Below, one piece after another: positions 5,744 through 34,954 of a stretch of DNA of 38,138 nt. The position numbers were made by a program, and so were the translations under genes. Source of the stretch: a virus; the IMG/VR virus record IMGVR_UViG_3300035660_000035, positions 1 to 38,138 of that record. One strand, written 5' to 3'. A model generated the notes under the pieces. The model searched no databases. It saw only the letters and a program-made list of their open reading frames with translations, and was not told the origin of the DNA. Within the stretch, counting starts at the first letter, position 1, and the number at the start of each line of letters is the position of its first letter.

Positions 5744-8700
5744 CTATTCGTAGTAAACCGCCTGCACCACGGCCCGGATGGTCAACTGCGCTTCGAGCCG
5801 GGCGGTCTTGACGGTGGCGGTTGAAATCTCGATCATGTTGTTTTCCTGCGCCGGCCGGAAGACCACATCCGTCAGCTCGTCGGTGATGTCCAACTCATAC
5901 CAGCCATTGCCAATGTCGGTCACCAGCGAGTTTAGGTCGCTGCTGCCATTGAGCTTGATCACCAGGTTCGCCAACACCAGGGTGTTGCCTCCAGTTTCCT
6001 CGAAAATGCCATAAACTGTCGTGATGACCGGTGTCACAGTGTGCGTGTGATTTGGGATGTCCACGCTATGGGTATGTGCAGGTATAGACACACTGTGGGT
6101 GTGCGCCGGATCGTCGTGTTGAGTTGGAAAGAACACGCCAGGATTACTAACCCCTGCATAGGGATCACCATCGGCAGTGACATATACCGGATAAGCAGCT
6201 GTCCCATTATGGATCCAAATTTCATGCGTATGTGCGCTACTCTCGGACGTGGGTGAAGATGACCCACCAGACGCAGACGTCAGCGTAGCAGATCCACCGC
6301 CGGATGTGGTGGCGGATGCTGATCCCACCGATTTCACCGTCGAGCGCAGCGGCTTGATCTGGAACCTGAACAGCGCCCGCGGAATGGAGGTGTATTCATC
6401 CCCCAACCAGAAACGGAAATTGGCGGCATGGTCAGCATCCATTTCGTCTCGCCAGGTCAGGGTATCCACGCTCGCCCCCAACTGCTGGTGCACCGATAGG
6501 ATCCGGCTTTCCTGCACCTGGCCTGCCAGGAAGGCATTGTCCGATACGGGCAGCCGGTCTATCGTCGAGATGATGATTCCGGTAGTATGCAAACCGATAG
6601 CATCGATGCGATTTTTCGACGTGACGATGATGAAATCATCATTCAGATCATACACAACCGCTCCATCCAGCAGCTCACGATAGACCACATGGATGGTCGT
6701 TCCAGGGAGCAGCATCTGGTTTACGTGGCCCAGGGAGAGATCGTAAAACTTTTGAGGGGCACAATTTCCCCGCAAATATTCTACTGAAGCCGTGAGCAGC
6801 ATATTAGCCGCCGCCTGGATATCCAGCGTGGAATTCGAGAGCGGCCCAATCTCCTTGAAATTGACCGGACGCTCGATCCGTCCATAAGCAGCCTCGGCCG
6901 CATTGTGTCTCAAATAATTCCAGGCAGCATTGAGGGTGTATCCGTCAGGCGGTGCGTCTGTGCAAAACTCCAGGGTCGTAACCGCTCCACCGTTCCCCGA
7001 GCCGCGTGGGATTACCCATGTGATCAGATCGGCCGCGTCGCTCTCCTCTTTCAGACTGCTGATCACCACAATTTCATCGGCTGCCTCGATGGCAACCACA
7101 TCGTTGATATGCTGCACGGCGCGTAACCCTGAAGCCGAGAAAGTGCTGGCCGGGCCGAGCCATTGCACCACCCGTCCCGCCTCGATGCGCCAATGCTCAC
7201 CAATGGCCTTGCCCACCCGCGTCAGGGCATTCAAAACGCTTTCGCCATCGAAACCAGCGTAAATCGGCGTCGAAGTAATTCCATCCTCGATCGTCCATTC
7301 AGATGTTTCCTGACTGGTCATCACCCGATTGTCCGTCCCTGAATATGCCACGGCGCAGAACAGCGAGAGATCTGGAGACCAACAGACGGATCGCCAGTAA
7401 TTATCCGCGGCACTCGTCCGGATCGTCCAGGTGATCCCATCCGGGCTGGTCATCACCCGGTTGGCTGTCCCCGAATTTGCCACGGCGCAGAATAGCGAGA
7501 GCTCCGGAGACCAGCAGACGGAGTACCAATTATTTTCCGCAGGGCTCTTCCGGATCGTCCAGGTGATCCCATCCGGGCTGGTCATCACCCGGTTACCTGT
7601 TCCCGTAATCGCCACGGCGCAGAACAGTGAAAGTCCCGGAGACCAACAGACGGAACGCCAGTCATTGTCCGCAGCGCTCGTCCGGATCGTCCAGGTGATC
7701 CCATTCGGGCTGGTCATCACCCGGTTGTCTGTCCCCGAACCCGCCACGGCGCAGAACAGCAAGAGCTCCGGAGACCAGCAGACGGAACGCCAGTCATTGT
7801 TCGCAGCGCTCGTCCGGATCGTCCAGGTGATCCCATTCGGGCTGGTCATCACCCGGTTGTTTGTCCCTGAATATGCCACGGCGCAGAACAGCGAGAGCTC
7901 CGGAGACCAGCAGACGGATAACCAATTATTATTCGCAGCGCTCGTCTGGATCGTCCAAGTGATCCCGTCCGGGCTGGTCATCACCCGGTTACCTGTTCCC
8001 GTAATCGCCACGGCGCAGAACAGCGAGAGATCCGGAGACCAGCAGACGGAGTACCAATTATTATTCGCAGCGCTCGTCCGTATCGTCCAGGTGATCCCAT
8101 CCGGGCTGGTCATCACCCGGTTGTTCGTCCCCGAACCCGCCACGGCGCAGAACAGCGAGAGATCCGGAGACCAACAGACGGAATGCCAGTCATTGTCCTC
8201 AGCGCTCGTCCGGATCGTCCAAATAATCTCACCTGGAGCTAGGGCCATGATCATTTTTGGCCCATCGAAAATTCCCACGCCGTTCGCCGTGACGATTACT
8301 TGTGCATTTCCGGCTGTCGTAATGGTCCCCACAACGGTCGCTGTCTCCACTTGATAAGTAACTCCCCAATCTCCGGGAGTAGTATCGGCAGACATGGCGG
8401 CCAGGGTAATTCCAACACAAGTATCATCAGAAATTCTAATATTCAAGGTGGGATCATTGGCGTCCTTATTTTTCTTGGTCAGAATAATATCTGTTTCGGC
8501 GCCAGTGACATCATAGATATCTGTTATCGGGACGTTGGCTAATAGAGCAGTTCTGATTTTTCCGGCGATCAAGGTGGCCGTATCGTAAAGAGCTACAGCA
8601 ACTAAAAGGGTTATAGGAGACCCTGCAATCCCTTCCACCTTTTGGAGTTTCAACTGCCCCACCGACCTATAGTTCAGTTCCCTCCCCAGGTCGTTTCCGG

Positions 8701-8998
8701 AAACTGCCACGATTGTTGAGCCATCGCCGGAGATCGTCGTCACGATCTTGTCAATGATTCCGCCGCCAAAAACCTGCAGGACGCCATCCCGATCCACATA
8801 GCGGCAGATGGCCACCAGTTTCTCGGCCAGGACGCTCTGGTTGGGGTCCGCCGCACTCACCTCGAACGAAAACTCGCCGCTCGCAGAAAGCAGGCTGGAG
8901 ATATCGAAAAAGCTGGCGCACAATGGCCCGGCGCCCAATCGAACGCCGGAGGCATTCTCAATATCAACCCAGAAATTGTGTATCTCCATGCGCAGCAC
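5744..8998 (-). CDS. Tail-tip (Tal/Gp37-like) protein with inserted 7-repeat predicted beta-propeller
   Basis: A 1084-residue baseplate protein encoded directly after Dit. The N-terminal ~250 residues (MEIHNFWVDIENASGVRLGA, SFFDISSLLSASGEFSFEV) and the part after residue 568 (DGESVLNALTRVGKAIGEHW, RIEAGRVVQWLGP, NHVNQMLLPGT-like segments) look like a siphovirus tail-associated protein of the Gp37 type, forming the tail-tip hub. Residues 261-568 are seven tandem 44-residue repeats (consensus TIRTSAANNNWYSVCWSPEL, SLFCAVAGSGTNNRVMTSPD, GITW), the count and size of a seven-bladed propeller. Near the C-terminus lie three HTH/HTHSV motifs (AHTHSVSIP, AHTHSVDIP, NHTHTV), as in metal-binding fibre shafts. 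AGGTG precedes the ATG. The hub role is inferred from order; the fold is inferred from the repeats. Confidence 0.8.
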   Translation of the reverse strand: MLRMEIHNFWVDIENASGVRLGAGPLCASFFDISSLLSASGEFSFEVSAADPNQSVLAEKLVAICRYVDRDGVLQVFGGGIIDKIVTTISGDGSTIVAVSGNDLGRELNYRSVGQLKLQKVEGIAGSPITLLVAVALYDTATLIAGKIRTALLANVPITDIYDVTGAETDIILTKKNKDANDPTLNIRISDDTCVGITLAAMSADTTPGDWGVTYQVETATVVGTITTAGNAQVIVTANGVGIFDGPKMIMALAPGEIIWTIRTSAEDNDWHSVCWSPDLSLFCAVAGSGTNNRVMTSPDGITWTIRTSAANNNWYSVCWSPDLSLFCAVAITGTGNRVMTSPDGITWTIQTSAANNNWLSVCWSPELSLFCAVAYSGTNNRVMTSPNGITWTIRTSAANNDWRSVCWSPELLLFCAVAGSGTDNRVMTSPNGITWTIRTSAADNDWRSVCWSPGLSLFCAVAITGTGNRVMTSPDGITWTIRKSPAENNWYSVCWSPELSLFCAVANSGTANRVMTSPDGITWTIRTSAADNYWRSVCWSPDLSLFCAVAYSGTDNRVMTSQETSEWTIEDGITSTPIYAGFDGESVLNALTRVGKAIGEHWRIEAGRVVQWLGPASTFSASGLRAVQHINDVVAIEAADEIVVISSLKEESDAADLITWVIPRGSGNGGAVTTLEFCTDAPPDGYTLNAAWNYLRHNAAEAAYGRIERPVNFKEIGPLSNSTLDIQAAANMLLTASVEYLRGNCAPQKFYDLSLGHVNQMLLPGTTIHVVYRELLDGAVVYDLNDDFIIVTSKNRIDAIGLHTTGIIISTIDRLPVSDNAFLAGQVQESRILSVHQQLGASVDTLTWRDEMDADHAANFRFWLGDEYTSIPRALFRFQIKPLRSTVKSVGSASATTSGGGSATLTSASGGSSSPTSESSAHTHEIWIHNGTAAYPVYVTADGDPYAGVSNPGVFFPTQHDDPAHTHSVSIPAHTHSVDIPNHTHTVTPVITTVYGIFEETGGNTLVLANLVIKLNGSSDLNSLVTDIGNGWYELDITDELTDVVFRPAQENNMIEISTATVKTARLEAQLTIRAVVQAVYYE
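7295..8218 (-). repeat. Seven tandem 132-bp coding repeats (propeller blades)
   Basis: Seven in-frame units of 132 bp (44 codons) in the tail-tip gene, differing at few positions. The segment CATCACCCGGTT of the + strand returns every 132 bp between about 7320 and 8125. Variation is concentrated at residues after SAA (NNNWY, NDWRS, DNYWR) and after CAVA (GSGTN, ITGTG, YSGTD), probably loops. The last unit degenerates after RVMTSQ. High nucleotide identity suggests recent duplication or ongoing recombination between units. Confidence 0.95.
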
Positions 8999-21919: not shown

Positions 21920-23135
21920 TATTTGCCTCCTGGTCCGTTCCGATCGGTGCAAAATTCTTGGTCATATAATGCAAATCGCCTTCCGGATATCCGGATACGT
22001 CATCTTTCTCGATGCACTGGTTGGGCGTCCGCTGCGCGCTGCGGATCAAAATTTCATTTGCCTCCGCCCGTTCCTTGGCCTTCATGCGCAAGAGCGACTC
22101 CCGGATGAACTTGAAGTAAGTATTGCCTTGCTCGGCCTGGCTCAGCCAGCGGATCCGCGCCGCTTCCTCGAAAGGTACCAGGTAAGCATCCAGCGTGCCT
22201 TGCAGATATTCGATGTACTTTTGCTCGTTCGAGTTGTAGGATTCTTTGCCCCGGTTGAGCATGTGCTCGGGCAGCCCGAAGAAGTTGCAGATGTCCCGGT
22301 CCGTCGCGTCGATCGATTCCAGGAACTGCGCGTCCGCGGGCTTCATCGAGACCGGCTCGAATTTGGTCACGCGGCTGTCGAATACAGCCAGGCGAAAAGC
22401 GTTGTCTGTACCGCCGATCGCATCCCCGTAACTCTTGCGGTATGCCTTGCGCCCCTCTTCATCAGTCTGGCCCGTGATCTGGATGTAAGCCGCCGGGTTC
22501 AGCCCCTGCGAGTAGAAATTGCTTTGTGTCTTTCGCGCCGCCAGTTGGCAACCAAAGGTCTCGCGCGCGAACGCGATAACGCCTTTACCCATGAAGCCGG
22601 TGCTGTCTGGGTTGATCAGTAGGTGCAGGATCTCCACCGCCGGAATATATTCGGACTTGCCATTGCTGAAAGTATGATGGTACCAGAGGCCGCCTTCCAG
22701 ATCGAACACCGGCCTGGTGCGGTCCGCGGGTAGAATCAGCAGTTGCCGGGGTCCCACCATCGGCTGCCAGACGTAGGAATTGCCATAGAAGAGCAGCCAT
22801 TCTATAAATGCTTTTTTAAATTGGAACGGCGTCCACCCCCATTCGTTCGGACTGACCTGCAGCAGGTAAGCCATGTTCCGAGTCACCGCGTCCGGCTGGA
22901 CCTGCTCGATTTGCCCACCTATTCGCCTCATCATCTGGAAGGGCATTTTCGCCACGTCGTCCGAGATGACATTCTTGCAGCGATAAGCTGTCGCGAGCGC
23001 CAGCGAACCCTCCACCGTGACCCGCTCGCCGGACTTCGACTCATAGCCGTACCTCGAGCCGTAATCCGGCCGCGGTGAGGCCTGGGTGTCTTCCTTGATT
23101 TTGGGATTGGCACTCAATAAATTACTTAGCAACAT
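21903..23135 (-). CDS. Portal protein, HK97 family
   Basis: A 410-residue protein that forms the dodecameric DNA channel at the capsid vertex. Family marks are ALATAYRCKNVISDDVAKMP near the start, then LLFYGNSYVWQPMVGPRQLL, LLINPDSTGFMGKGVIAFAR, and FLESIDATDRDICNFFGLPE with HMLNRGKESYNSNEQKYIEY, the conserved 'I...FGVP..LL......YSN.EQ....' helix. Length is normal. The ATG at 23135 begins MLLSNLL; an upstream start at 23156 lacks a better ribosome site. It overlaps the small membrane protein gene upstream and the protease gene downstream. Confidence 0.92.
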   Translation of the reverse strand: MLLSNLLSANPKIKEDTQASPRPDYGSRYGYESKSGERVTVEGSLALATAYRCKNVISDDVAKMPFQMMRRIGGQIEQVQPDAVTRNMAYLLQVSPNEWGWTPFQFKKAFIEWLLFYGNSYVWQPMVGPRQLLILPADRTRPVFDLEGGLWYHHTFSNGKSEYIPAVEILHLLINPDSTGFMGKGVIAFARETFGCQLAARKTQSNFYSQGLNPAAYIQITGQTDEEGRKAYRKSYGDAIGGTDNAFRLAVFDSRVTKFEPVSMKPADAQFLESIDATDRDICNFFGLPEHMLNRGKESYNSNEQKYIEYLQGTLDAYLVPFEEAARIRWLSQAEQGNTYFKFIRESLLRMKAKERAEANEILIRSAQRTPNQCIEKDDVSGYPEGDLHYMTKNFAPIGTDQEANNAIPK

Positions 23136-23310
23136 GGTCTGCCTTCGCCTTCCCAATCAGCGCGCCGACCAGCATCCCGGCCACGATGCAAAATGCACCG
23201 GCCACGAACCACGTGGCCGCGGGGCACAGCGCATACGTGCCAATGCAGATCAGCAAGGCGCCGAGCAGGAACAGAAGATCGTCGAGGTAACGGGATAAAA
23301 GACTTTTCAC
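23122..23310 (-). CDS. Small membrane protein at head of late operon
   Basis: A 62-residue protein from a GTG at 23310: MKSLLSRYLDDLLFLLGALL, ICIGTYALCPAATWFVAGAF, CIVAGMLVGALIGKAKADHV. It has two membrane helices with a short loop. Small proteins of this pattern (RYLxDLLxLxG...G...L.PAAxW...G) precede portal genes in other phages; I do not know their job. The frame is open further upstream to 23385, but that part would be encoded by the intrinsic terminator at 23336-23362, so the later start is preferred. It is the first gene of the 20-kb late operon. Confidence 0.65.
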   Translation of the reverse strand: MKSLLSRYLDDLLFLLGALLICIGTYALCPAATWFVAGAFCIVAGMLVGALIGKAKADHVAK

Positions 23311-23335
23311 ACTTTTGGCCCATAAAAAGCAAAAA

Positions 23336-23362
23336 CGCCAACGGGAAGTTTTCCCGTTGGCG
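23336..23362 (-). terminator. Intrinsic terminator inside late-operon leader
   Basis: CGCCAACGGGAA (23336-23347), loop GTT, TTCCCGTTGGCG (23351-23362): a perfect 12-bp stem followed on the - strand by TTTTTGCTTTTTA. It lies between the late promoter and the first late gene, so late transcription requires read-through. It begins exactly 15 nt after the conserved hairpin element at 23378-23395. Confidence 0.85.
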
Positions 23363-23377
23363 CTCGTCTCCAACCAT

Positions 23378-23395
23378 AACCGCACAAGAGCGGTC
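23378..23395 (-). promoter_or_regulatory. Late leader element, copy B (antitermination-like)
   Basis: On the - strand GACCGCTCTTGTGCGGTT can fold as a 6-bp stem with a TCTTGT loop. It differs from the copy at 28147-28164 at two positions (T for G in the loop, T for C at the end). The 15 nt that follow (ATGGTTGGAGACGAG) also partly match copy A. Sequence conservation here, against unrelated terminator stems, suggests this is the recognised part. Confidence 0.65.
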
Positions 23396-23410
23396 AGCTC
23401 AATTGCAAAT

Positions 23411-23439
23411 AGTTTAGCACGTAATTTCTAAAAAAGCAA
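23411..23439 (-). promoter_or_regulatory. Promoter of head/tail late operon
   Basis: On the - strand TTGCTT (23434-23439), 17 bp, TAAACT (23411-23416), with TG one base ahead of the -10 (TGC-TAAACT, extended -10). The expected start of transcription is near 23404, about 9 nt before the leader hairpin. Confidence 0.6.
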
Positions 23440-23474
23440 TAGCTTTTTCCTTGCAAACCAGAATTCTTCAACCC

Positions 23475-23503
23475 TTGACATACCTTCATTCTGAAGTTAT
23501 AAT
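23475..23503 (+). promoter_or_regulatory. Consensus sigma-70 promoter with internal operator
   Basis: TTGACA (23475-23480), 17-bp spacer, TATAAT (23498-23503): a perfect match to the vegetative consensus. The spacer contains the inverted repeat CTTCA-TTC-TGAAG (23484-23496), a plausible operator for the ribbon-helix-helix protein encoded next. The expected start site (about 23510) coincides with the A of the ATG, so the transcript is likely leaderless. Confidence 0.8.
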
Positions 23504-23509
23504 GCAGCC

Positions 23510-23668
23510 ATGAAAAATTTTACACTCAGGATCTTTGAAGCTCTCCATGAAGCACTTATAAAATGCGCAGCGAGAAATCGCCGGAGTTTGAACGGTGAAA
23601 TAATTCATGCCTTGATAGAATATGTGCGAAACGAGGGTTTCAATGTCAAAGAAGAAAAAGAAGTCTGA
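23510..23668 (+). CDS. Ribbon-helix-helix (Arc/MetJ-type) DNA-binding protein
   Basis: A 52-residue protein: MKNFTLRIFEALHEALIKCA, ARNRRSLNGEIIHALIEYVR, NEGFNVKEEKEV. Residues 3-8 (NFTLRI) would be the DNA-contacting beta strand, followed by two helices joined by RRSLNGE, the classic Arc turn (SLNxEI). It probably acts as a dimer on the inverted repeat inside its own promoter, giving autorepression. It heads a + strand island set within - strand late genes. It is a regulator, or alternatively the antitoxin of a pair, but the next gene does not look like a known toxin. The fold call is strong; the target is inferred. Confidence 0.85.
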   Translation: MKNFTLRIFEALHEALIKCAARNRRSLNGEIIHALIEYVRNEGFNVKEEKEV

Positions 23669-23679
23669 TTTAACGCATC

Positions 23680-23714
23680 GAGCCTAGAAAGCGTTATTAG
23701 CGCTTCCTAGGCTC
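23680..23714 (+). terminator. Long hairpin after RHH gene
   Basis: GAGCCTAGAAAGCG (23680-23693) pairs with CGCTTCCTAGGCTC (23701-23714), 13 of 14 positions, around a 7-nt loop. It lies 11 nt after the RHH stop. No T-tract follows, so termination would be partial or factor-dependent; it may instead be an mRNA-protecting stem. Confidence 0.5.
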
Positions 23715-23720
23715 TAGCCA

Positions 23721-23803
23721 CCGCCGTGAGATAGCCACGACGCAGGCTGTGATGAATTTTATCACACACACGGCGGACCAACCCCAAGAGGAGGCTCGCC
23801 GTG
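23721..23803 (+). promoter_or_regulatory. Possible RNA switch controlling the 23801 gene
   Basis: CACGGCGG (23769-23776) can pair with CCGCCGTG upstream (23721-23728), enclosing a second stem TGTGAT/ATCACA (23748-23753, 23761-23766). Alternatively its first seven bases can pair with CGCCGTG at 23797-23803, which includes the GTG start codon and loops out the ribosome site AGAGGAGG (23788-23795). The two folds are mutually exclusive: one leaves the start free, the other hides it. A thermosensor, ligand switch or protein-binding leader would look like this. The pairing is seen; regulation is inferred. Confidence 0.45.
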
Positions 23804-24157
23804 TTGGATTTAAATGCCCTGTTCGACCTGAATTCATTGCCGCTCGCGCCAGAGTTCGCTGAAACCCTGGCCGAGAACGCCACCGAGACCGCCGCGGCTG
23901 CGCTCGAAGCCCTGCATGTACCCGAAAATCTCATCCTGCTGGTCAGGAACATCCACGAGCTGGGCTACTATCTCGAAGAGTGCTACCGCTCTCCAAATCC
24001 CTTGCTGCATGAGCGCCGCAACCGCTTCGATATCGAGGCCGTCGCCGTCGAAACCATCAACGCCATCGCCCAATCCGGCGGCGTGTTTCATGGCCCCGTT
24101 GGCGATACCCTCCCGCGCGAGACCCCTACGCCCGTGCAGTTCGAGCAGCCAGCATGA
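23801..24157 (+). CDS. Unknown protein of moron island
   Basis: A 118-residue acidic protein (MLDLNALFDLNSLPLAPEFA, ETLAENATETAAAALEALHV, PENLILLVRNIHELGYYLEE). It is probably helical through residue 95 with a Pro-rich, disordered end (LPRETPTPVQFEQPA). No cysteines suggest zinc binding and no membrane segment is evident. The start is GTG with AGAGGAGG 6 nt upstream, inside a foldable leader. It overlaps the HNH gene by 4 nt (ATGA). I do not recognise the family. Its acidic surface would suit an inhibitor or protein partner, but that is only a guess. Confidence 0.65.
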   Translation: MLDLNALFDLNSLPLAPEFAETLAENATETAAAALEALHVPENLILLVRNIHELGYYLEECYRSPNPLLHERRNRFDIEAVAVETINAIAQSGGVFHGPVGDTLPRETPTPVQFEQPA

Positions 24158-24624
24158 AGGAGATCCCACTTACCCAGGGCCAGGTCGCCCTGGTGGATGA
24201 CGAAGATTTCGAGCGCGTCAATGCCTTCAAATGGTATGCGCGTTGGCTTACTCAAACTAAATCGTTTTATGCTGCTCGAAATACAGGGCCTAGACGTAAT
24301 CGTAAAATGATTCTCATGGCCCGTTTTATCATGAACACACCAAAGGGTATGGAATGCGATCACATCCAGCATAATACTTTGGATAATCGTAAAAACAACC
24401 TGCGTAATTGCACGCGATCTCAAAACTCGATGAATAAACGCTTGCGCTCTGACAACACGACTGGCTTCAAGGATATATCGAAAAATAATGGCTCTTACCT
24501 GACTCAAGTCTGGGCTAATGGAAGGTATGTTTATTGCAAATGTTTTCCGACCCTTGAAGAAGCCATAGCCGCACGTGACGAAGCGGTCAAGAAATATCAC
24601 GGCGAGTTTGCCTGTACAGAGTAG
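24154..24624 (+). CDS. HNH endonuclease with AP2 domain (homing type)
   Basis: A 156-residue free-standing endonuclease. The N-terminal segment KEIPLTQGQVALVDDEDFER and NAFKWYA is the usual entry of HNH_3 proteins. CDHIQHNTLDNRKNNLRNCT carries the HNH residues (His in DHI, Asn in LDNRKNNLR). The AP2 DNA-binding part follows (FKDISKNNGSYLTQVWANGR, ending ARDEAVKKYHGEFA). The DNA is visibly richer in A and T than its neighbours, suggesting transfer. It is translationally coupled to the 23801 gene by ATGA. Such genes are selfish and may have carried the island into place. Confidence 0.9.
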   Translation: MKEIPLTQGQVALVDDEDFERVNAFKWYARWLTQTKSFYAARNTGPRRNRKMILMARFIMNTPKGMECDHIQHNTLDNRKNNLRNCTRSQNSMNKRLRSDNTTGFKDISKNNGSYLTQVWANGRYVYCKCFPTLEEAIAARDEAVKKYHGEFACTE

Positions 24625-24632
24625 GGTTGGCT

Positions 24633-24723
24633 TAAAGCACACCGTCCCCTTGCGGGGACGGGGCGGCGGGCGGGGTTCACTCGCACTTTTGCTTTAGGTT
24701 TAGCTCAAGAAGAGCTGCCTGCT
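24633..24723 (-). ncRNA. Candidate small structured RNA
   Basis: A strong - strand promoter (24730-24758) reads into about 90 nt with no gene. The RNA would have a 5' hairpin AGCTC/GAGCT (24712-24716 and 24702-24706), then a closing stem TAAAGCA/TGCTTTA (24690-24696 with 24633-24639) around a perfect 8-bp GC-rich hairpin CCGTCCCC/GGGGACGG (24642-24661). No U-tract follows, so the 3' end is uncertain and longer transcripts would run antisense into the HNH gene. Expression is inferred. Confidence 0.4.
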
Positions 24724-24729
24724 AGACAT

Positions 24730-24758
24730 ACTATAGCACTATTATCCTGAAATTTCAA
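24730..24758 (-). promoter_or_regulatory. Extended -10 promoter downstream of tRNA
   Basis: On the - strand TTGAAA (24753-24758), 17 bp, TATAGT (24730-24735), with TGC directly ahead (TGC-TATAGT). It has the same GTGCTA context as the head/tail late promoter (GTGCTAAACT). It reads leftward away from the tRNA, toward the candidate small RNA and the moron island's 3' end. Confidence 0.6.
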
Positions 24759-24782
24759 GAGGCAAATAAATCATGGCAAGTG

Positions 24783-24856
24783 CGCCCCGGATGAGACTTG
24801 AACTCACAACCTAAAGCTTAGCAGGCTTTCGCTCTTTCCTTTTGAGCTACCGAGGC
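24783..24856 (-). tRNA. tRNA with anticodon GCU (Ser) but short variable loop
   Basis: Cloverleaf read on the - strand: acceptor GCCTCGG/CCGGGGC (7 bp, one G-U), T8 A9, D-stem GCTC/GAGC with GG in the loop, anticodon stem AAAGC/GCTTT with loop CTGCTAA, 5-nt variable loop AGGTT, T-arm GTGAG/CTCAT with loop TTCAAGT, discriminator G73. Anticodon GCU reads AGC/AGU Ser codons. Bacterial tRNA-Ser normally has a long variable arm, absent here, so charging identity is doubtful. CCA is not encoded. It lies downstream of TerL and is probably co-transcribed with it. Confidence 0.8.
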
Positions 24857-24913
24857 ACGCAGATATTGTAGCAAGAATCCTATTTATAAACAAGTAGGCT
24901 GTGCATTCCTAAC

Positions 24914-24953
24914 AGCCAGCCGCCAGCCGCCAACCGCCAATAGCCAATAGCCA
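24914..24953. repeat. Tandem degenerate heptamer repeat
   Basis: Five consecutive 7-mers, AGCCGCC (twice), AACCGCC, AATAGCC (twice), preceded by AGCC, ending at the TerL stop codon. It may be a mutational hot spot or a slippage product; nothing functional is evident. Confidence 0.7.
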
Positions 24954-26654
24954 CTAAAACCCGAACCCGGTCATATCCGTCTTGCGCAGCTCATCCAATT
25001 GCCGCATGGCGTCAATGATGGCTGCCAGCAGGTCGATCCGCCGCGTGTCGCCCGCCTTGCGCTTCGAGAGCATGATATTCTCTTTGCTGTCCACGATCTG
25101 CCGCGCATTTCCAACGCTCCATTTCAGCAGCGGCGATCCGTCGTGCACCAGCTTCCCGGCCGCCACCAAGTCCCGGAAGAGTTTGGTTGGTTCGCTCAAG
25201 TTCGCCATCGTCTGGCGGATCTCGACCGTCACGTATCCGCCATCCGCCAGTTCTGTGGCGAAGTGCGTTGCTTGATAAGGGTCATAGCAGAGCTGGTGCA
25301 CCTGCCAGCCATACTCAGTCTTGCATTTTTCGATGTGCTCCCGGATGCGCCCATAGTCGGTCACATCTCCCTCGGTGGCGGTGATCCATTTTTTCCGCAC
25401 CCATTCGGAATATGGGATTTTATCGGTTTTTTGATGTCGCTTGATCGCCTCTTCCGGGATGAACCCGTGCGCGCAAACAGCGACTCGCTCAGCATCCAAT
25501 ACAAATACAAACCCGACGGCGGTCAGGTCTATCTTCTTCGACAGGTCCACGCCCACCAGGCACAGCATCCCCTTCGTCATTTCGCCGAACTTCTTTTTGG
25601 AGACTCCCAGCGCATCCCACTGGTGGTCCATCAGATCGCTCATGAACGTATCTTCGTTACCGTGTTGCCAGATGTTTAGGTTCTTGATTCGGAACGTTCT
25701 TATTTTGGCCGGGTCTTTGCTCCCAAACGCCTCATCATGCTGCTCCTGCAGCTCCTCCAGGCTGCGCGGGAGTAGCACGCGCAGCGGATTGCTTTTGATC
25801 CACACGGCCGGATTGTGCTCGTCGTCCTCCGGGTCCAATTCCCGGATCATCACGAAATAGCGCTCGTTGAGTGATGGGTCTTCCAGGATCAGCCTGCAAT
25901 ATTCATATTCATGATGGCAAGGGCTTTCCAGGTCCATCCCTGCTGTAGTGATGATCGCCATGAAAGGCTGCTTGCGGTGGCCGCCCTTGGCCGAGGAAAG
26001 CAGGTCGTAGATCTCGCTGGTCGTGTGTTGTGCATATTCGTCCACGATGGCCCCCGAGGGATGCAGGCCGTCTTTATTCCTGGTCTCCTTCGAGAGCGGC
26101 GCCAGAACCCCCCCTCGTTTCACGTGCGTGATCTTATAATCGCGCACGATCAATCGCTTAGCGATATCTGGGGAGTTCTCAGCCATGCTCTTGGCGCCAT
26201 CATACATCAGCCGCGCCTGGCCCCGATCCACTGCCGCGCAGAAGACCCTCGGGCTGATCTCCCCATCCCCCACCATCAAGTAAAGTACCACGGTAGCCAG
26301 CAGCGTGGTCTTTGCGTTTTTGCGCGCCATTTGGATATAAGCCTTTTTGAACCGCCGTTCGCCGCTATCCCGGTGCACCCACCCGAACATTACTCCCACA
26401 TCGAATTTCTGAAACGCCACCAGTAGGATCGGCTGGCCAGCCAGGTCCCCCTCTACGTGATGGCAATAACTGATGAACTCGTAAACCCGGTCCGCCCGAT
26501 CTTTATCGAACACCCACGGGAACTCGTCCGAACCCTGGCGATCGAGATCATCGAGGTGACGCTTGCACGCCAAATATTCGCTGTGCCCCACAACCCGGCG
26601 CCCCTCGACGACTTCGAGCGCATATTGAGTACAAGTGTGTATCATGGCTAACAT
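24954..26654 (-). CDS. terL: Terminase large subunit
   Basis: The 566-residue packaging motor and headful/cos nuclease. The ATPase domain has Walker A RKNAKTT (111-117), Walker B IVDEYAQ (with D205 and E206) and the coupling segment AFMAIITTAGMDLESP-like (FMAIITTAGMDLESPCHHEY). The nuclease domain starts at LCLVGVDLSKKIDLTAVGFV, whose Asp begins the RNase H-type metal site, with DPYQATHFATEL later. The Terminase_1 family and length are normal. It is encoded 2 nt after TerS, without its own clear ribosome site, so it is coupled. Packaging type (cos or pac) cannot be told from this. Confidence 0.95.
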   Translation of the reverse strand: MLAMIHTCTQYALEVVEGRRVVGHSEYLACKRHLDDLDRQGSDEFPWVFDKDRADRVYEFISYCHHVEGDLAGQPILLVAFQKFDVGVMFGWVHRDSGERRFKKAYIQMARKNAKTTLLATVVLYLMVGDGEISPRVFCAAVDRGQARLMYDGAKSMAENSPDIAKRLIVRDYKITHVKRGGVLAPLSKETRNKDGLHPSGAIVDEYAQHTTSEIYDLLSSAKGGHRKQPFMAIITTAGMDLESPCHHEYEYCRLILEDPSLNERYFVMIRELDPEDDEHNPAVWIKSNPLRVLLPRSLEELQEQHDEAFGSKDPAKIRTFRIKNLNIWQHGNEDTFMSDLMDHQWDALGVSKKKFGEMTKGMLCLVGVDLSKKIDLTAVGFVFVLDAERVAVCAHGFIPEEAIKRHQKTDKIPYSEWVRKKWITATEGDVTDYGRIREHIEKCKTEYGWQVHQLCYDPYQATHFATELADGGYVTVEIRQTMANLSEPTKLFRDLVAAGKLVHDGSPLLKWSVGNARQIVDSKENIMLSKRKAGDTRRIDLLAAIIDAMRQLDELRKTDMTGFGF

Positions 26655-26656
26655 GG

Positions 26657-27103
26657 CTAATCGAATTGATCCCCAAACTGGTCGAGCTTCTTATCGGCCT
26701 TTTTCTTGATCAGCCGCGCCCGCGCCGAGGGGTTGAGGCCCAGCTTATCACTTAATTGGGAGATGCTACGCGCCCAGGCCTGCTGCTCCTTGATCCTATC
26801 CACGCTCCTGCGCTTCAGCCTCGCACATTTTTCATGCTCTACCACCGCATTGCAATATACCGCCAGTGTTTCCCGGTCGAGATTGTCGAATAAAGCCAGA
26901 CCCTTGGCCTGTTCCAGGATCGTACGCCAGATCTCGAGCTCGTGATCGTTCAACCAGCGCGGTGGTTCCAGGATGACCGGCCCATCCCGTTGCATCTCCG
27001 CGGCGGCCGCCTTGCGCGCAGCTATTTCCCTCTTTGTCCAATGCTTGCCTCCGCCCTTCTTCCCCACCTCCATCGTTTCCACAGCAACGGTTTTTGTTGG
27101 CAT
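26657..27103 (-). CDS. terS: Terminase small subunit, P27 family
   Basis: A 148-residue DNA-recognition subunit of the packaging complex. The N-terminus is basic and Lys/Gly-rich (GKKGGGKHWTKREIAARKAA). Family segments are PPRWLNDHELEIWRTILEQA, LFDNLDRETLAVYCNAVVEH and SDKLGLNPSARARLIKKKAD, the 'LGLTPSSRARL' pattern of P27-type small terminases. It directly precedes TerL. About 130 nt ahead of it hold no convincing gene: a 29-codon frame (27104-27200 region) lacks a ribosome site. Confidence 0.9.
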   Translation of the reverse strand: MPTKTVAVETMEVGKKGGGKHWTKREIAARKAAAAEMQRDGPVILEPPRWLNDHELEIWRTILEQAKGLALFDNLDRETLAVYCNAVVEHEKCARLKRRSVDRIKEQQAWARSISQLSDKLGLNPSARARLIKKKADKKLDQFGDQFD

Positions 27104-27232
27104 TCCACATCATAACTCCACGCGCAGCGTCCGGCCCGCCGGCCAAATGCTACCCAACGCCAAGGTTGGTACTGAAAACATAAAACTTCCGGCGACCATC
27201 AGGGATTCTTTCTTGTAGATGTACCCTAACCG

Positions 27233-27613
27233 CTATGCAATCCCCAAGCAAATGTTTTTCGATGGGGGGGTGTTAGTCCATCCTGCCTCATACGCAGTCC
27301 ACGCAGAATGGCAATCATGGCATAGAGATTCGAGTGGACCGTTATAAAACTTCTCTGGGTCACCCTGGTGGCGCTCCAGGTGATGTACATCCGTGGCTGG
27401 GACATAAACACCCTGCCGCACTCCGTTCTCGCACCACGGATGCGCTGCAAGGTGGGCAGCTCTGATCTTTCGCCAGCGCCTGTCATATAACCGCTGGCGT
27501 GCCGGGTCCCGCCGCTCTGCTTGATGATCTAACGGATGGGCAGGGCACCGGCCCCTAGTTACCAGCGTGGTGCAACCTGGATACGAACACGGACGAAGCG
27601 AGCCTTTAGGCAT
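27233..27613 (-). CDS. HNH endonuclease next to terminase
   Basis: A 126-residue protein from the ATG at 27613. A zinc knuckle (RPCSYPGCTTLVTRGRCPAH) is followed by RLYDRRWRKIRAAHLAAHPW and the HNH core DVHHLERHQGDPEKFYNGPL with ESLCHDCHSAWTA. HNH proteins encoded beside the terminase genes take part in genome packaging in HK97-like phages, probably in cutting DNA. It overlaps the membrane protein gene upstream; a TTG at 27634 is an alternative start. The role follows from family and order. Confidence 0.9.
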   Translation of the reverse strand: MPKGSLRPCSYPGCTTLVTRGRCPAHPLDHQAERRDPARQRLYDRRWRKIRAAHLAAHPWCENGVRQGVYVPATDVHHLERHQGDPEKFYNGPLESLCHDCHSAWTAYEAGWTNTPPSKNICLGIA

Positions 27614-28076
27614 CCTTACTGTAGGATTTGCCAATCAATGGCACACTAGCGGCGCTGAGAGCATCATGCGCAGGCTTCGAGCCAGTAATTTGCATGATGA
27701 ACCCGAGCACGAATAGGATGACCATTGCAATCTGTCCAGCATATCCATTCAAGATGTTCGTTGCCAGGTCGGGACGGAAGACGCCAAAGGCCACCAGAGC
27801 AATGAACGCAGCCAGGTTCAGACCCGCTGCCCACTTGTCGGCCGTATTGTCCTTAACGAGTTGACATACCTTTAGGACATTGACAAGCGCAGCGATCAGC
27901 TTCGAGACGCCGACAAGCGATGCAAATCCAAGCATGATGGTGACCACCACATTCAACACATCAGCCGGGAGCAGAACAGCAGCAGGCGAAGCCGCGTGAA
28001 CGATTGCCGGCATGAAAGCCAGCATCGTAACTGCCAGGATTGCGAGAACGAGAAAAAACTTGTGGAACGTTTTCAT
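27606..28076 (-). CDS. Holin-like membrane protein with signal sequence
   Basis: A 156-residue protein. A classical signal or membrane-anchor sequence (MKTFHKFFLVLAILAVTMLA, FMPAIVHAA) precedes three further hydrophobic helices at about 40-68, 86-102 and 112-132, and a polar C-terminus. It is the first gene after the second late leader, heading the packaging operon. AAAGGAG lies 6 nt before the ATG. Pore formation (holin) is one option; no holin family is recognised, and the separate location from the endolysin (30762) leaves this open. Confidence 0.7.
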   Translation of the reverse strand: MKTFHKFFLVLAILAVTMLAFMPAIVHAASPAAVLLPADVLNVVVTIMLGFASLVGVSKLIAALVNVLKVCQLVKDNTADKWAAGLNLAAFIALVAFGVFRPDLATNILNGYAGQIAMVILFVLGFIMQITGSKPAHDALSAASVPLIGKSYSKDA

Positions 28077-28104
28077 GGTTTGCTCCTTTCAAGCAATAAA
28101 AAAA

Positions 28105-28131
28105 CACCCGACGCCAAAACGGCATCGGGTG
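28105..28131 (-). terminator. Intrinsic terminator inside packaging-operon leader
   Basis: CACCCGACGCC (28105-28115) and GGCATCGGGTG (28121-28131) form an 11-position stem with one wobble, followed on the - strand by TTTTTTTATTG. It stands between the promoter and the first gene, as at 23336-23362, and starts exactly 15 nt after the conserved hairpin element. The stem sequence is unrelated to the other terminator. Confidence 0.85.
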
Positions 28132-28146
28132 CCACATCCGATCATT

Positions 28147-28164
28147 GACCGCACACGAGCGGTC
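28147..28164 (-). promoter_or_regulatory. Late leader element, copy A (antitermination-like)
   Basis: On the - strand GACCGCTCGTGTGCGGTC, a perfect 6-bp stem with a TCGTGT loop, followed by AATGATCGGATGTGG and then the terminator. It matches copy B (23378-23395) at 16 of 18 positions, with identical spacing to its terminator. Confidence 0.65.
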
Positions 28165-28174
28165 GCACCTGCAG

Positions 28175-28180
28175 ATTATA
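28175..28180 (-). promoter_or_regulatory. -10 box of packaging-operon promoter
   Basis: A perfect TATAAT on the - strand, placed so that transcription would start a few nt before leader element A. No good -35 is found (CCGTTA at 17-bp spacing), as expected of a promoter needing an activator or other help. The stop of the upstream gene lies within it. Confidence 0.5.
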
Positions 28181-28196
28181 TTACATTCTAGCGATT

Positions 28197-28574
28197 CTAA
28201 CGGTCTTGCATCAGCCTCCTAAATTTCTTCACGGCCTCCTCGCCTCGAACCCTGCGGATCAGGTCCACCAGTTCTTCCTCGTTTGGATACCACTCCTGCA
28301 AGGATCCACAGTCATCGCATCCGACCGTCGCATTGCCGGCCAAGCCGCGCACCCGCCACATAGACTGAGGGCTAATTGCCCGCCCTTGACGCTCCGTTTC
28401 GGCGCTGGCGATGATCTCCGCATCGGTTGGCTGATAGCGCAAATCCTTCTTCTGCACGCGCAGCACCCATAGCCGGCGTATACGGTTAGCATCCCGCAGG
28501 ACAAAGCCCAGGAGCGCGCCGCATTCTTCGCAGCGCCAGGGACGGGGTTGATAGGTTAAATCTATGCTGATCAT
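28197..28574 (-). CDS. Zinc-ribbon protein upstream of late promoter
   Basis: A 125-residue protein from the ATG at 28574 (GGAG 5 nt upstream; a longer frame to 28676 lacks one). Two Cys pairs, CEEC (RPWRCEECGALLGFVLRDAN) and CDDC (ATVGCDDCGSLQEWYPNEEE), would bind one zinc. A basic middle (NRIRRLWVLRVQKKDLRYQP) and a C-terminal helix (LVDLIRRVRGEEAVKKFRRL) follow. It is the last early gene before a late promoter with a leader terminator, the place where lambdoid phages keep their late antiterminator (Q-like proteins also carry zinc motifs). The link is by position only; no family is recognised. Confidence 0.7.
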   Translation of the reverse strand: MISIDLTYQPRPWRCEECGALLGFVLRDANRIRRLWVLRVQKKDLRYQPTDAEIIASAETERQGRAISPQSMWRVRGLAGNATVGCDDCGSLQEWYPNEEELVDLIRRVRGEEAVKKFRRLMQDR

Positions 28575-34841: not shown

Positions 34842-34881
34842 TTCTCCTTCTTCCTTCTGGCTCGAATGGACTTGCTTTAGG

Positions 34882-34954
34882 TAGCGGGAGGCAGATTCGA
34901 ACTGCCGACCTCCGGGTTATGGGCCCAGTGAGCTGACCTCTGCTCTATCCCGCA
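34882..34954 (-). tRNA. tRNA-Met (CAU), initiator type
   Basis: Cloverleaf on the - strand: acceptor TGCGGGA/TCCCGCT, in which positions 2-7 pair and 1-72 is a T-T mismatch. D-arm GAGC/GCTC gives an A11-U24 pair. The anticodon stem CTGGG/CCCGG has three successive G-C pairs next to loop CCCATAA. T-arm GGCAG/CTGCC with loop TTCGAAT, then A73 CC (the third base is T, not A). The unpaired 1-72, the GGG/CCC stem and A11-U24 are the classic marks of bacterial initiator tRNA, and most positions agree with E. coli tRNA-fMet as I remember it. It lies between early genes on the same strand. Confidence 0.9.

Follow-up and report, generated by a model that had tools for sequence, protein, structure and literature searches.

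Paired hairpin-terminator leaders as putative late-transcription gates in a large group of uncultured phages

Introduction

In lambda-type N/nut antitermination, a phage-specific hairpin is matched by a phage protein, the specificity differs between related phages, and the element is present in two copies per genome. In the lambda Q arrangement, the gene of the factor ends the early block and is followed by the late promoter and by a terminator located just before the late genes. In the BglG, SacY and LicT systems, an RNA stem held by a protein, the ribonucleic antiterminator (RAT), takes the 5' arm of a terminator and excludes it. Here, we analyzed the IMG/VR virus record IMGVR_UViG_3300035660_000035 (the window, the whole stretch of 38,138 bases), which encodes tailed-phage-type terminase and portal proteins. 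The terminase and portal operons are each preceded by a leader that comprises a small hairpin (P1), a 15-nucleotide (nt) spacer and an intrinsic terminator (P3). From sequence comparison, these leaders are probably paired late-transcription gates opened by a phage-encoded, hairpin-specific antiterminator, for which a zinc-ribbon protein is the candidate.

Described systems offer several points of comparison. In Bacillus velezensis, the same small hairpin is found in the leaders of two operons, and the specialised protein LoaP gives read-through (LoaP/dfn, PMC12691694). HK022 put consists of a pair of adjacent stem-loops formed in nascent RNA, at two sites per genome, and involves no phage protein (PMC9378689, which also describes nut and N). 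Lambda Q is loaded during a sigma-dependent pause, via a DNA element (PMC7171158). Finally, the bipartite RNA-plus-protein conAn system of plasmid pLS20 acts on more than 20 terminators located inside a single long operon (PMC8955417). For the phages considered here, sequence comparison shows the architecture of the leaders, the covariation of P1 and of a second stem (P2), the exclusion between P2 and the terminator, the presence of one hairpin class per genome, and the linkage and cosegregation of the zinc-ribbon protein.

Organization of the two leaders

Leader 1 starts with the P1 hairpin GACCGCTCGTGTGCGGTC, followed by the 15 nt AATGATCGGATGTGG and by a terminator with the stem CACCCGATGCC..GGCGTCGGGTG and a T run (Table 1). 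In leader 2, the P1 hairpin is GACCGCTCTTGTGCGGTT, the next 15 nt are ATGGTTGGAGACGAG, and the terminator has the stem CGCCAACGGG..CCCGTTGGCG, again with a T run. A preliminary description of this DNA had reported a hairpin, exactly 15 nt and a strong terminator at two minus-strand sites, with 16 of 18 hairpin bases conserved; this arrangement is present at both sites, and direct comparison of the two P1 sequences reproduces the 16/18 identity. Exact matches to GACCGCTCNTGTGCGGT are found in the window only at the two leaders, and dinucleotide shuffles of the window contain a mean of 0.32 hairpin matches with 3 mismatches allowed. The hairpin-gap-terminator layout occurs twice in the window versus zero times in five shuffled (Markov) windows. 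The RNA folding z-scores of the two leaders are -3.6 and -6.2.

A stem that competes with the terminator

The 15-nt spacer is structured: five of its nucleotides form base pairs with the terminator 5' arm. This stem, P2, was missed in the preliminary description. It is present in 42/42 distinct leaders tested, with seven pair combinations: GUCGG:CCGAC, GUUGG:CCAAC, AUCGG:CCGAU, UUCGG:CCGAA, GACGG:CCGUC, GAUGG:CCAUC and GUCAG:CUGGC. A P2 of at least 5 base pairs is found in 39 of the 42 leaders, versus a mean of 24.2 and a maximum of 31 when the arms were re-dealt among leaders (1000 trials); related leaders are scored separately in these counts, which overstates their independence, and the seven pair combinations are seen nonetheless. 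Transcripts cut before the 3' arm of the terminator fold into P1 and P2 in 30/32 cases, whereas the complete RNA forms the terminator. P2 and the terminator are thus mutually exclusive, because P2 uses the terminator 5' arm and because cut and complete transcripts fold differently.

Distribution of the leaders and the two hairpin classes

The preliminary description had suggested searching related phages for the element and its terminator. In IMG/VR phage contigs, this layout was found in more than 40 distinct leaders, with two leaders in a typical genome. An exact IMG/VR scan with the hairpin of the window (class 1) matched ten contigs. Class-1 contigs with the promoter-hairpin-spacer-terminator layout are L003, L004, L005, L010 and L011/L012 (one phage found twice), and five of the ten exact matches (L006-L009 and similar) were discarded as chance matches or duplicates without this layout. 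L013, identified by terminase similarity (62% identity), harbors the same layout. Second class-1 copies have altered stems that still pair (GGCCGC/GCGGCC in L003, GCTCGC/GCGGGC in L005).

A different hairpin was observed in G010 (IMGVR_UViG_3300032046_000110), whose capsid, portal and TerL are 92%, 75% and 61% identical to those of the window. Both leaders of G010 are at the same two places and have in common the hairpin GCA-GTCCTGGT..ACCGGGAC (class 2). A scan for this hairpin returned 29 stretches, mostly complete leaders. With the covariance models R1 and R2, built for leader searches, records with enough sequence typically show two leaders, leader 1 before membrane protein, HNH-like, TerS and TerL genes, and leader 2 before small membrane protein and portal genes. 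All 17 two-leader records have a single hairpin class per genome (4 class 1, 13 class 2); the window has class 1 at both leaders although its portal is closest to those of class-2 phages. A P1-blind scan built on the P2 region revealed further leaders, all class-2 variants, with stem changes such as CCCTTGGT..ACCGAGGG and CTTTTGGT..ACCGAAAG. The hairpin is thus replaced rather than lost, since a different one occupies its position in both leaders of the nearest relatives; terminators kept with the hairpin gone, which the preliminary description had named as an outcome contrary to its proposal, are not what these relatives show. Beyond IMG/VR, an exact search for the class-1 element in 84,980 genomes gave 11 matches, none with a terminator behind it, that were judged to be chance, and the class-2 covariance model gave two weak matches in 400 Chloroflexota genomes, which are plain terminators without P1.

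P1 and P2 together could bind the host RNA polymerase directly and render it terminator-resistant, as a factor-free put-like RNA. The cut leaders fold as two adjacent stem-loops, and HK022 likewise has two copies of two stem-loops each and needs no phage protein (PMC9378689). However, an element read by the host should match in phages of one host, yet phages whose capsids are 92% identical have different hairpin classes, and the class follows the linked gene described below. Moreover, the HK022 putRNA is about 70 nt long and no terminator overlaps its second stem, whereas the second stem of the present leaders competes with the terminator. A put-like element is for these reasons decidedly unlikely. 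A phage-specific recognition hairpin is supported; of the two options raised in the preliminary description, a Q-like protein or a put-like RNA, the factor-free one is disfavoured.

Another possibility is that the terminated RNA of about 70 nt is itself the product, with one small regulatory RNA per site and the downstream genes transcribed by ordinary read-through. A promoter, a structured RNA and a terminator are also the anatomy of a small RNA gene. However, the terminator is always followed, after a few tens of bases, by the gene that opens one of the same two operons, P2 competes with it, no other promoter is evident for these operons, and few parts of the RNA are single-stranded. We regard this as the least probable of the explanations considered.

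Class-2 phages often have an extra open reading frame (ORF) of about 280-430 residues (cluster c10), present once or twice, between leader 1 and TerL, and often a second TerS-like gene in the same interval. Records with the c10 ORF or the second TerS-like gene are G016, G017, G020, G022, G023, G024, G027 and G033.

P1 as an RNA element

Compensatory changes affect pairs 1, 2, 3, 4, 7 and 8 among 30 distinct class-2 P1 hairpins. The fifth pair is U.G in 29 of these hairpins, and their loops are 3 to 7 nt long, mostly GUAG/AUAG or 5-7 nt. In class 1, the loop is near-constant (UCUUGU and single changes, UCKUGU) and the outer stem varies. Between the -10 box and P1, the spacing varies among leaders, being about 7 nt at the shortest and more than 25 nt at the longest. 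P1 is palindromic and zinc-ribbon proteins can bind DNA; P1 might therefore be a DNA operator for a dimeric regulator such as a zinc-ribbon repressor or activator, the terminator being a mere insulator against upstream transcription, which would be sensible by itself at an early/late boundary. Compensatory pairs, variation in loop length and the variable -10 spacing fit a protein-bound RNA hairpin better, as does the conservation of the U.G pair, and the operator leaves no role for the covariation of P2. It is thus very improbable, and the comparative evidence supports P1 as a likely phage-specific recognition element in RNA.

Two other readings of the leader RNA were rejected. The sequence CGCUCUU, which resembles a boxA (NusB/S10), is found only in class-1 loops; window leader 1 has CGCUCG instead, and class 2 is without boxA. 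An antiterminator formed by CGCUC of P1 and GAGCG before the terminator is conserved in neither window leader 1 nor L013.

The zinc-ribbon protein

A zinc-ribbon gene, encoding the candidate trans-acting factor, lies upstream of leader 1. A homologue is found there in 12/12 records holding that region, with class 1 (the window, G001, G005) or class 2 (G010, G016, G019, G020, G022, G024, G027, G033, G034); in G001 and G016, where the simple gene caller had missed it, the gene was recognized by eye in the reading frames. The gene usually adjoins leader 1, and the zinc ribbon is the only gene family common upstream of this leader. When IMG/VR was searched with only the class-2 protein profile, 12 loci were obtained; a leader lies 34-2562 nt downstream in 11 of them, and at the twelfth the contig ends 765 nt downstream of the gene. 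Six of these loci are new records, and the leader is present in all 6. The class-1 profile returned no records beyond those already known. Proteins of the two classes are similar only at the C-terminal ribbon (hhalign E 1.6e-4, probability 50), and their combined alignment is too divergent for searching. AlphaFold2 was uninformative for the window protein alone (predicted local distance difference test, pLDDT, 48); with the class-2 alignment (pLDDT 65), a β-rich domain and a C-terminal helix are predicted, with no convincing match among solved structures.

The window and G034 are 73% identical in the gene before the zinc ribbon, 75% in the portal and 92% in the capsid, versus about 22% in the zinc ribbon, and their P1 hairpins are different. 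The window and G005 are 62-65% identical in the portal and 47-51% in TerL; their zinc ribbons are 37% identical and their P1 is the same. When portal and TerL were regressed out of the zinc-ribbon similarity, the true class labels were the best of the 220 possible choices of three proteins from twelve (1/220), which is the strongest obtainable result because there are only three class-1 proteins. Protein similarity thus follows the hairpin class and not phage relatedness.

Zinc ribbons occur in many proteins, linkage is no proof of contact, and the gene is not always adjacent to leader 1. It might thus be a bystander, the leaders being read by another phage or host factor. Against this, hairpin class and zinc-ribbon type are exchanged together between otherwise similar genomes, and no other gene family is common upstream of leader 1, so that a bystander role seems unlikely. 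The interpretation given in the preliminary description, which noted that this gene sits where a Q analogue would be, is partly supported: synteny, the reciprocal search and cosegregation point to the zinc-ribbon protein as the likely factor, and no match of the zinc-ribbon proteins to the Q family was found in Pfam or PHROGs.

A model for the gates

We propose that RNA polymerase arriving from just upstream would synthesize P1 and next P2, whose spacer bases would hold the 5' arm of the terminator. By default, P2 would be displaced as the 3' arm emerges, the terminator would form, and transcription would stop after about 70 nt. Once made, the zinc-ribbon protein, encoded directly before leader 1, would bind P1 in the nascent RNA and stabilize or lock P2, modify RNA polymerase, or both, so that the terminator fails. 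The polymerase might then pass into the terminase and portal operons together. Protein-RNA binding, read-through, timing and the choice between local (P2 locked) and processive action are what we infer from this arrangement. In the window, G005, G010, G022 and G034, the two gates are the only strong terminators on the coding strand, so that processive action is not demanded and a local switch would suffice. The idea that the terminator acts as a gate, already present in the preliminary description, thus gains comparative support from all five related records.

Several observations weigh against this model. P2 is short and far less stable than the terminator, and therefore needs help to matter. 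The predicted structure of the protein has only modest confidence and no fold match. Other genes intervene between the zinc-ribbon gene and leader 1 in G020, G022 and G027. With three class-1 proteins known, the cosegregation test has a floor of 1 in 220. In a Chloroflexota genome, a related prophage (portal 69% identical) has neither the leaders nor a recognisable zinc-ribbon gene; it is the only relative examined that lacks both, and its gene order also differs, which makes this co-absence a weak point. The prophage gives a hint about the host. Finally, the promoters of the window are weak consensus matches: of the promoters that the preliminary description placed before each leader, that of leader 1 has a perfect TATAAT, and neither passes a sigma-70 scan with a 9-of-12 threshold. 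Clear -10 boxes are frequent at the leaders of relatives.

Comparison with known antitermination systems

By analogy, the placement resembles that of lambda Q, and the logic of a hairpin, a factor and a terminator in two leaders resembles that of LoaP/dfn. As in LoaP/dfn, a small hairpin and then an intrinsic terminator are found in the leaders of two target operons, with a hairpin-reading protein that is here a candidate. LoaP is a NusG paralogue (NGN/KOW), whereas no NusG match was found among the zinc-ribbon proteins or the Pfam-scanned window proteins. In addition, the LoaP/dfn loop is of the UNCG type, unlike those of both classes described above, and only the present leaders have a covarying stem that overlaps the terminator. 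With lambda Q, the leaders share a (candidate) factor gene located directly before the late promoter and terminator, but the recognition element is here a covarying RNA hairpin present twice. The system thus falls outside the Q and LoaP families, as neither their proteins nor their recognition elements were found.

The likeness to lambda N/nut lies in the phage-specific hairpin, the candidate matched phage protein, the class that differs between relatives and the two copies per genome. However, late and not early operons are concerned, and the terminator lies directly behind the hairpin. No N-like protein was matched in Pfam or PHROGs among the scanned proteins, N proteins being short and fast-diverging. 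As in BglG/SacY/LicT, a stem that is expected to be held by a protein includes the terminator 5' arm and excludes the terminator, but specificity here resides in a separate hairpin, P1, and no protein with a PRD/co-antiterminator domain was recognised among the scanned window proteins. Like conAn, this would be a bipartite system of RNA and protein at operon starts of a mobile element, without the strong internal terminators in the five records.

Rfam covariance models gave no credible match at either window leader or at a class-2 leader, BLAST of the leaders and protein against 50,697 deposited phage records gave nothing convincing at the sensitivity used, and no description of the hairpin-terminator system was found in the literature searched. 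The statement of the preliminary description that it knew of no described element with this sequence agrees with these searches. Hairpin-gated antitermination is known; the protein, the hairpins and the covarying switch stem are new. We lean slightly towards an undescribed late-antitermination family, unrelated to N, Q, put and NusG-type systems, in which a fast-diversifying zinc-ribbon protein would read a phage-specific hairpin, a covarying stem would hold the terminator arm, and one protein would open two operons. If so, a protein-RNA late switch, so far only from uncultured phages, would be added to the short list of antitermination systems. The many natural hairpin-protein pairs, with RNA specificity switched between close relatives, would make the evolution of RNA recognition testable by swaps, and the compact gate of about 70 nt could serve as a signature for assigning metagenomic phages.

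Genes and signals around the leaders

Features of the leaders and of the two operons are listed in Table 1.

Table 1. Coordinates of the leaders and neighboring genes in the window.
Feature	Position	Strand	Remarks
Zinc-ribbon gene, candidate trans-acting factor	28197..28574	-	125 residues; CxxC at residues 15-18 and 86-89
-10 box, leader 1	28175..28180	-	TATAAT, no clear -35; from sequence; absent from promoter scan list
P1 recognition hairpin (putative), leader 1	28147..28164	-	GACCGC-TCGTGT-GCGGTC
P2 5' strand, leader 1, in spacer	28138..28142	-	ATCGG; partner 28124-28128; covariation
P2 3' strand, leader 1, within terminator 5' arm	28124..28128	-	CCGAT
Intrinsic terminator (P3), leader 1	28103..28133	-	followed by T run
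Membrane protein gene, first behind leader 1	27606..28076	-	156 residues
HNH-like gene, leader 1 operon	27233-27634	-	
TerS gene, leader 1 operon	26657-27103	-	
TerL gene, leader 1 operon	24954-26654	-	
Weak promoter-like sequence, leader 2	23411..23439	-	TTGCTT-17-TAAACT; from sequence; under scan threshold
P1 recognition hairpin (putative), leader 2	23378..23395	-	GACCGC-TCTTGT-GCGGTT
P2 5' strand, leader 2, in spacer	23370..23374	-	GTTGG; partner 23356-23360
P2 3' strand, leader 2, within terminator 5' arm	23356..23360	-	CCAAC
Intrinsic terminator (P3), leader 2	23333..23365	-	
Small membrane protein gene, first behind leader 2	23122..23310	-	portal gene next; start GTG 23310 by comparison with G001

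Two further signals were observed upstream of leader 2 in relatives. Many class-2 contigs (L087, L088, L090-L092, L098, L099, L101, L108, L127, L143, L176, L178, L182, L187, L196, L197) and the class-1 contig L036 have, between TerL and leader 2, a second conserved hairpin that was not observed in the window. Its arms end in GGGTG and CACCC and otherwise vary, its C-rich loop is YCCCCCT, its stem reaches up to 17 base pairs, and it is often directly behind TTCTAAAAT. This hairpin may represent a further RNA signal, or else a DNA site. In L059, L071-L074 and L045 (G005), the shared DNA sequence GGGCGACTTGCCCCCCTCAAGCCGCTCGCC..TATAAT is found at the leader 2 promoter, directly upstream of the -10 box. 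GGGCGACTTGCCCCCCTCAAGCCGCTCGCC precedes leaders of both hairpin classes, and might correspond to an activator site or to a shortened version of the C-rich hairpin.

Beside leader 2, the window encodes a 52-residue Arc-like ribbon-helix-helix protein (23475-23668, plus strand), whose gene has its own perfect sigma-70 promoter on the opposite strand to the leaders (TTGACA-17-TATAAT). A tRNA-Ser gene (GCT anticodon; 24782-24856, minus strand) is located between TerL and leader 2, and a tRNA-Met gene (CAT; 34880-34954, minus strand) in the early region. Finally, a tail-region protein of 1084 residues (5744-8998, minus strand) comprises about 8 near-identical repeats of about 40 residues each, SWSPDLSLFCAVA...GNRVMTSPDGITWTIRTSA.

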